Notes under the pieces: generated by a model
Databases searched by the model: none
The model's input: the letters and a program-made list of their open reading frames with translations, nothing else
What the model was told of the DNA's origin: nothing
Shown: positions 11,075 through 11,702 of the stretch, piece by piece
Layout of the letters: each line of letters opens with the position of its first letter
Position numbering within the stretch: the first letter of the stretch is position 1
IMG/VR virus record: IMGVR_UViG_3300017788_000153
Span: 1 to 25,645 of that record
From: a virus
DNA: 25,645 nt
Direction: 5' to 3' (one strand)
Position numbers and translations under genes: made by a program

Positions 11075-11111
11075 TTTTCTACCCTTTCTGAGTTGCTACC
11101 CTAGCCACTCA

Positions 11112-11143
11112 CCACCCCCGCCGGGTTGCCCCGGCGAGGATAG
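11112..11143 (-). other. 14-bp CTATC-footed intercistronic hairpin, copy 1
   Basis: CTATCCTCGCCGGG pairs with CCCGGCGGGGGTGG (14 bp including three G-U pairs) around a GCAA tetraloop of the GNRA class. It begins 7 nt after a stop codon. A second hairpin TGAGT-GCTA/TAGC-ACTCA (11111-11089) and then GAAAGGGTA follow. Confidence 0.7.
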
Positions 11144-11150
11144 AAAGCCT

Positions 11151-11363
11151 CTAGCGGTTTTTCTTCCCGTTCCGCTTGATTATCTCCCGCTGGAGAAACC
11201 CGATAGCGTTCGCCAGTTCCTGAGCCTCTTCGAGGTTAGAGTAATCGTAACACCCTAACCAATCTATCGCGAAACCGAGGCTATAGGTACTAGCCCTCTT
11301 GGGCTTGACTTTGCCAGCGTTTAGCGCCCATTCTACATTTCCGTACTCTTCGATTTCTTCCAT
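11151..11363 (-). CDS. hypothetical protein (70 aa)
   Basis: ATG 11363 follows GAAAGGGTAGTA. The protein begins MEEIEEYGNVEWALNAGKVK, has a Trp/Tyr-containing middle (FAIDWLGCYDYSN), a helix (LEEAQELANAIGFLQREIIK) and a basic end. It lies between the second hammerhead ribozyme and the first CTATC hairpin. No family is recognised. Confidence 0.65.
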   Translation of the reverse strand: MEEIEEYGNVEWALNAGKVKPKRASTYSLGFAIDWLGCYDYSNLEEAQELANAIGFLQREIIKRNGKKNR

Positions 11364-11385
11364 TACTACCCTTTCCCTATCTGAC

Positions 11386-11439
11386 GGCCTCGTCAGTATC
11401 CGCGTTACGGATAGACGCCCCTTGCGGGGCGTTTCGGCC
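11386..11439 (-). ncRNA. type II hammerhead ribozyme, copy 2
   Basis: Reading the minus strand 11439 to 11386: GGCC (stem II 3' strand); GAA core; stem III ACGCCCC/GGGGCGT with GCAA loop; C17 at 11414; stem I TATCCG/CGGATA with TAACG loop; core CTGACGA; GGCC (stem II 5' strand). All invariant hammerhead positions (C3 U4 G5 A6 N7 G8 A9, G12 A13 A14, the A15.1-U16.1 pair, H17) are present. The open end lies in stem II, which defines type II. Cleavage is expected between 11414 and 11413. It directly abuts the TAA of the upstream gene. Confidence 0.9.
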
Positions 11440-11628: not shown

Positions 11629-11648
11629 CTTTTACCCTTTCGTAGTCT

Positions 11649-11702
11649 GACCTCATCAGCGCCGGAGATACCGGCGGACACCCCTCGCGGGGTGTTTCGG
11701 CC
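11649..11702 (-). ncRNA. type II hammerhead ribozyme, copy 1
   Basis: Minus strand 11702 to 11649: GGCC (stem II 3' strand); GAA core; stem III ACACCCC/GGGGTGT with GCGA loop; C17 at 11677; stem I CGCCGG/CCGGCG with TATCT loop; core CTGATGA; GGTC (stem II 5' strand, one G-U). Every invariant hammerhead nucleotide is present. Cleavage is expected between 11677 and 11676. Its first base is the last base of the upstream TAG stop. The upstream RNA product would end in a GNRA-capped hairpin, and the downstream one would begin with stem I. Confidence 0.9.

Follow-up and report, generated by a model that had tools for sequence, protein, structure and literature searches.

Two type II hammerhead ribozymes form the spacers of a leftward operon of tiny genes in the 25,645-base phage record IMGVR_UViG_3300017788_000153 (the window, that is, the whole stretch of DNA analysed), and they belong to a family in which fusion of the ribozyme to the preceding stop codon is the rule. 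In a large subclass of this family, which includes the second window copy, the sequence NUCAG directly 3' of stem II is complementary to the catalytic strand CUGAN, and covariation points to a conserved hairpin, here called the lock, that would capture the catalytic core. We favor, at a probability of slightly above one half, a reading in which the hammerheads cut the operon RNA between genes, after which the lock drives cleavage forward and structures the 5' end of the downstream RNA. The stop-to-start placement, the lock hairpin and the arrays of 10-12 ribozymes in cultured Streptomyces phages make the role of phage hammerheads testable, a role that has been called open for phages and prokaryotes (PMC6155905). 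If true, a natural lock on the catalytic strand would give a textbook ribozyme a new device for regulation or irreversibility, and would offer RNA engineering a usable part.

Two hammerheads between tiny genes

The record, a fragment of a tailed-phage genome, encodes terminase, exonuclease, DnaB-like helicase and primase, and its hammerheads lie among the small ORFs listed in Table 1. ORF-A, ORF-B and ORF-C had no match among PHROG families, and orthologues of them were not found across relatives, where the flanking ORFs change from phage to phage. A first-pass annotation had proposed a complete type II hammerhead, with none of the invariant nucleotides missing, in the intercistronic site between ORF-A and ORF-B, and both the element and its location held up. 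The covariance-model scan that it had suggested returned a match of 39.8 bits to RF02276 (Hammerhead_II), above the gathering threshold of 37, with an E value of 5.2e-5 over the window. The A15.1-U16.1 pair, stem III with its GCGA loop, C17, stem I and the CTGATGA core lie in the registers it had assigned, the Rfam alignment register places the cut where it had been predicted, and the G of the ORF-A stop codon TAG (11704-11702) is indeed the first base of stem II.

Hammerhead 2 and its core-capturing hairpin were missing from that annotation. This copy begins on the base that follows the TAA of ORF-B and is composed of stem II (GGCC/GGCC), GAA, stem III with a GCAA loop, stem I and CUGACGA. 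No RF02276 match beyond the two copies was found in the 25,645-base record, an Rfam search around the site at E values up to 5 gave nothing further credible, and blastn of the spacer region against named phages gave no match.

Table 1. Positions of the hammerheads, hairpins, ORFs and second spacer element in the window, and of the second element in relatives.
Feature	Positions	Strand	Remarks
ORF-A, 62 aa	11702..11890	(-)	no family match; TAG stop overlaps hammerhead 1 by 1 base
Hammerhead 1, type II	11649..11702	(-)	Rfam match 11702-11641; RF02276 and descriptor scan
Hammerhead 1, stem II strands	11702-11699; 11652-11649	(-)	GGCC; GGTC
Hammerhead 1, GAA	11698-11696	(-)	
Hammerhead 1, stem III	11695-11678	(-)	ACACCCC-GCGA-GGGGTGT; A15.1-U16.1 included
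Hammerhead 1, predicted cut	11677/11676	(-)	3' of C17 (11677); Rfam alignment register
Hammerhead 1, stem I	11676-11660	(-)	CGCCGG-TATCT-CCGGCG
Hammerhead 1, core	11659-11653	(-)	CTGATGA
Hammerhead 1, possible core-capturing hairpin	11647..11659	(-)	CUGAU-GAG-GUCAG; pairing only
ORF-B ribosome-binding site	11640-11635	(-)	AAAGGG
ORF-B, 62 aa	11440..11628	(-)	flanked by both hammerheads; TAA stop abuts hammerhead 2
Hammerhead 2, type II	11386..11439	(-)	Rfam match 11439-11379; RF02276 38.0 bits, gathering 37
Hammerhead 2, predicted cut	11414/11413	(-)	C17 at 11414; inferred from Rfam alignment register
Hammerhead 2, lock hairpin	11381..11396	(-)	CUGAC 11396-11392, loop GAGGCC, GUCAG 11385-11381
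ORF-C, 70 aa	11151..11363	(-)	downstream of hammerhead 2; AAAGGG 11374-11369
Second element at ORF-C stop	11083..11161	(-)	structured spacer, outside Rfam
Second element, further copies in operon	10968-10886; 10156-10070	(-)	
Second element in relatives	L004 6076-5997; L007 1825-1747; L086 1049-967		

Both copies contain the complete set of CUGANGA, GAA, A15.1-U16.1 and H17, and in both stems I and III are closed by loops and stem II is open. The isolated 71-nt RNA of hammerhead 1 is predicted to fold into the hammerhead secondary structure (-28.3 kcal/mol, z = -2.1); in longer native context RNAfold, which ignores tertiary contacts, disfavours stem II in both copies. Among relatives the core is kept and the stems vary with compensation, the stem II pairs being 100% kept with changes on both sides. 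The window copies thus share with the published type II family (RF02276; PMC3088659) the core, the three stems of which stem II is open, the cut site at C17, an intergenic location in phage or prophage DNA and the occurrence of several copies around single genes. They differ from it in that the usual pairing between the 3' tail and loop I is not evident, complementarity of at least four bases between the two being absent by eye from either copy, and in the complementarity of the hammerhead 2 tail to the catalytic core, where position 7 covaries. The loop I-tail pseudoknot is present in other type II subclasses, where it is common and not obligatory. Both window ribozymes are predicted to cleave.

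Placement between stop and start codons

Pattern scans of IMG/VR and one of GTDB genomes yielded at least 388 distinct hammerheads, a set that is a sample; among the matches listed, five hammerheads came from the genome collection and all others from viral contigs. With placement scored on the longest upstream ORF, a stop codon fell within -4 to +1 of the first stem II base in 267 of the 368 distinct phage type II hammerheads among the matches listed, and exactly at that base in 118 of these 368, with TAG accounting for 95 of the 118. The same placement was seen at 14 of 485 CGAAAC decoys without a hammerhead core and at 27 of 1325 random positions, or 2-3%. The next start codon followed at a median of 79 nt past the stop and 54 nt past the cut (hammerheads among the matches listed), and such tight distances on both sides mean that the hammerhead is the intercistronic spacer itself. 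Far from being peculiar to this locus, stop-codon fusion is how phage type II hammerheads are usually placed.

The novelty claimed for intercistronic use at a stop codon survives in part. Clustered hammerheads that flank single prophage genes were described in 2011 (PMC3088659, Perreault 2011), where three arrays were found to cleave, cleavage was observed in vitro and in E. coli, no circular RNA was detectable, and a role in processing long phage RNAs was proposed; phage hammerheads were later reported to flank ORFs for small non-conserved proteins (PMC6155905, de la Pena 2017). To the flanking of small phage genes the window pair therefore adds a member. Neither the family-wide stop-codon fusion nor a core-capturing hairpin was found in the open-licence literature searched, including the text of PMC3088659, and a prior description elsewhere is possible. 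The prophage clusters of Agrobacterium tumefaciens, Azorhizobium and Clostridium scindens (PMC3088659) share with our locus the tandem copies around individual genes and a proposed part in processing phage RNAs; self-cleavage was shown for those clusters. The largest array found there was triple, whereas we found up to 12 matches per record, and the stop/start geometry is quantified here.

Arrays of this size occur in cultured Streptomyces phages, where type II matches run along one small-gene operon: 11 in Janus (NC_054660), 12 in Paedore (NC_054671) and 10 in Puginator (PP978857). Several of the Streptomyces-phage hammerheads begin 1-5 nt past the annotated end of a CDS. Those of Janus and Paedore belong to the tail-pseudoknot subclass, and so bear on processing and not on the lock. 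Single IMG/VR records contained up to 11 matches; in IMGVR_UViG_3300038412_000035, which has 11 Rfam matches, the descriptor scan found nine near-identical type II hammerheads in about 4.3 kb.

Closer to the window, 15 of 80 records related through the terminase, many of them fragments, contained an RF02276 match at E <= 0.01, several with two. The many related phages that have no hammerhead match indicate that the element is dispensable. A comparison with related phages, also proposed in the first-pass annotation, revealed at the same operon position a conserved core and changing stems, and in the descriptor scan the stop lay mostly at the stem II edge with different small ORFs around it.

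In the subclass with GACC in stem II, the codon before the fused TAG is AAC (Asn) in 18 of 28 cases, across unrelated ORFs; loci of this kind near the terminase include L023, L028, L053 and L063, among others. We rejected AAC as a conserved RNA signal: it is limited to the GACC subclass around this phage group, and so probably reflects shared ancestry. The pattern suggests a cassette that is shuffled together with its last codon. A hammerhead-like remnant fused to a stop codon was seen at one further locus (L238, TGAGCCGAAACCAGCCGCAAGGCTGGTCTGTCATAAGACA), where stem III and a short stem I are present but the CUGANGA core is not.

A hairpin complementary to the catalytic strand

The lock pairing can be examined through core position 7, which is unpaired in the active fold and covaries nearly perfectly with the N of NUCAG. 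When the scans constrained neither position 7 nor its partner, the 126 distinct hammerheads with TCAG in register, among the matches listed, had the position 7 pair as C-G in 77 cases, U-A in 47, U-G in one and a mismatch in one (Fisher p = 2e-32 on 120 distinct sequences). Clustering by stem sequence reduced the matches listed to 64 groups, of which 31 were U-A, 28 C-G, three of both states and two of other kinds. Both bases were switched between near-identical ribozymes, namely L220 and L255 (C7..G) versus L300 (U7..A). No such covariation is seen in hammerheads that have the same stem II followed by a different tail.

TCAG occupied this place in 18 of 164 hammerheads chosen regardless of tail, against 0.64 expected. 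By pair counting, the lock cells were paired in 99.3% and covariation was far above that of slid registers, the rows having been preselected for a near-UCAG arm so that the position 7 pair is the unbiased test. In off-consensus arms with position 7 paired, 13 of 19 were compatible with G-U pairing (UUAG 8 and UCGG 5, versus UCUG 5 and UAAG 1), a distribution that fits RNA pairing, though transition bias confounds it. As judged by sequence covariation, a conserved lock pairing exists in this subclass; covariation proves the pairing, not when it forms.

Two other explanations of the tail were rejected. For the lock subclass we dropped a loop I-tail pseudoknot as the reason for the UCAG tail: loop I does not match this tail, which is instead complementary to the core and covaries with it. 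Extension of stem II by the following base fails as well: directly 5' of stem II there stands in most cases a stop-codon A, which cannot pair with G or A. For hammerhead 1, a lock of the GGUCAG type is not accepted as proven, since its register has no covariation support of its own; the pairing may be coincidental, AG being common after stem II anyway.

Proposed processing of the operon transcript and other readings

If the hammerheads serve mRNA processing, each ribozyme would fold once transcribed and would cut the polycistronic RNA downstream of one gene's stop codon and ahead of the ribosome-binding site of the gene that follows. The stem III hairpin would then close the upstream mRNA, about 25 nt past its stop codon; the downstream mRNA would open with a 5'-OH and the hairpin of stem I, about 50 nt upstream of its start codon. 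Type II closes both stem III and stem I, so that a hairpin stands at both product ends, and both new mRNA ends should resist nucleases. It follows from the topology that type II is the only permutation in which a hairpin ends both products, which suits a role in mRNA processing. RNase III cuts the polycistronic mRNAs of T7 between genes and leaves end hairpins; that cut is made by a host protein nuclease, whereas the window elements are putative self-cutting RNAs.

The upstream product keeps the stem II strand with GAA (GGCC-GAA) and stem III, and the downstream product holds stem I, CUGANGA, the other stem II strand and NUCAG, so that all of the lock pairing is contained there. After the cut, the freed CUGAN would pair with NUCAG in hammerhead 2 and many relatives, preventing re-ligation and adding structure to the new 5' end. 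In predicted energies, the hammerhead fold is favoured over the locked fold by a median of about 1.3 kcal/mol before cleavage, and after cleavage the lock gains the 3' product about 5.1 (C-G) or 2.9 (U-A) kcal/mol. These energies, and the fact that the lock hairpin adjoins stem I without a linker, favor a lock that acts on the product; in the folded 3' product of hammerhead 2 the computed probability of the hairpin is 0.999.

The main rival takes the same pairing as a translation-gated off-switch, in which a ribosome terminating upstream would block stem II and CUGAN-NUCAG pairing would keep the ribozyme off; with the upstream gene untranslated, stem II would re-form and the RNA would be cut. 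This we regard as possible but rather unlikely. The stop codon is fused to the 5' strand of stem II. The sequence order allows either stem II or the lock but not both, and the two are almost equal in energy, with a median difference of 1.3 kcal/mol. A stronger stem II also accompanies the stronger C-G lock pair (p = 0.0024 within locus-GC quartiles, a coarse matching), and a second spacer element of the same operon likewise begins at stop codons. Yet stop fusion is equally common in hammerheads without a lock, and the order of transcription allows stem II to form before the lock strand exists. A wider version, that phage type II hammerheads are two-state devices whose stop codon in stem II and covarying hairpin let translation termination decide the cut, with perhaps the same logic in the second element, is likewise doubtful.

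It is improbable that the hammerheads are neutral, modular linkers, cassettes that recombine with small genes, with cleavage of little effect and patchiness arising from gain and loss. Their patchy occurrence among terminase relatives and the presence of similar cassettes between different genes would be so explained, but the compensatory changes in the lock and stem II, the tight stop-start placement and arrays of up to 12 per phage argue for selection. That the CUGAN..N'UCAG symmetry marks a DNA or RNA site for a phage protein and not a competing fold is very improbable: the sequence is near-palindromic (for example CTGATGAGATCATCAG), but one arm is the invariant ribozyme core, and off-consensus arms are mostly G-U compatible, subject to the same confounding.

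Least probable of all is excision of ORF-B as a 263-nt RNA that is then circularised or joined to other pieces, as in retrozymes (PMC4918200, PMC7761336), which also have two hammerheads flanking a short stretch: the piece would carry a full split hammerhead, GGCC of hammerhead 2 matching GGUC of hammerhead 1, but spliced or circular products were sought in similar arrays and none was found (PMC3088659), ligation would be opposed by a lock holding the freed catalytic strand, a single hammerhead is all that many related loci have, and retrozymes are of type I or III in a retrotransposon or repeat context with circular RNA, none of which was seen in the window, its two type II hammerheads lying between phage ORFs.

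The second spacer element starts at a stop codon, with the layout UAG...UUG-C-CUAUC-(hairpin)-GGUAG-...ACUAG followed by a second hairpin. It had no Rfam match, and copies were found in few other contigs. Its stems covary, 9 of 18 consensus pairs being changed on both sides across 16 sequences, and it could be a new self-cutting RNA or switch. It merits attention because new ribozymes have come to light among new structured RNAs close to hammerhead-associated genes (PMC6155905).
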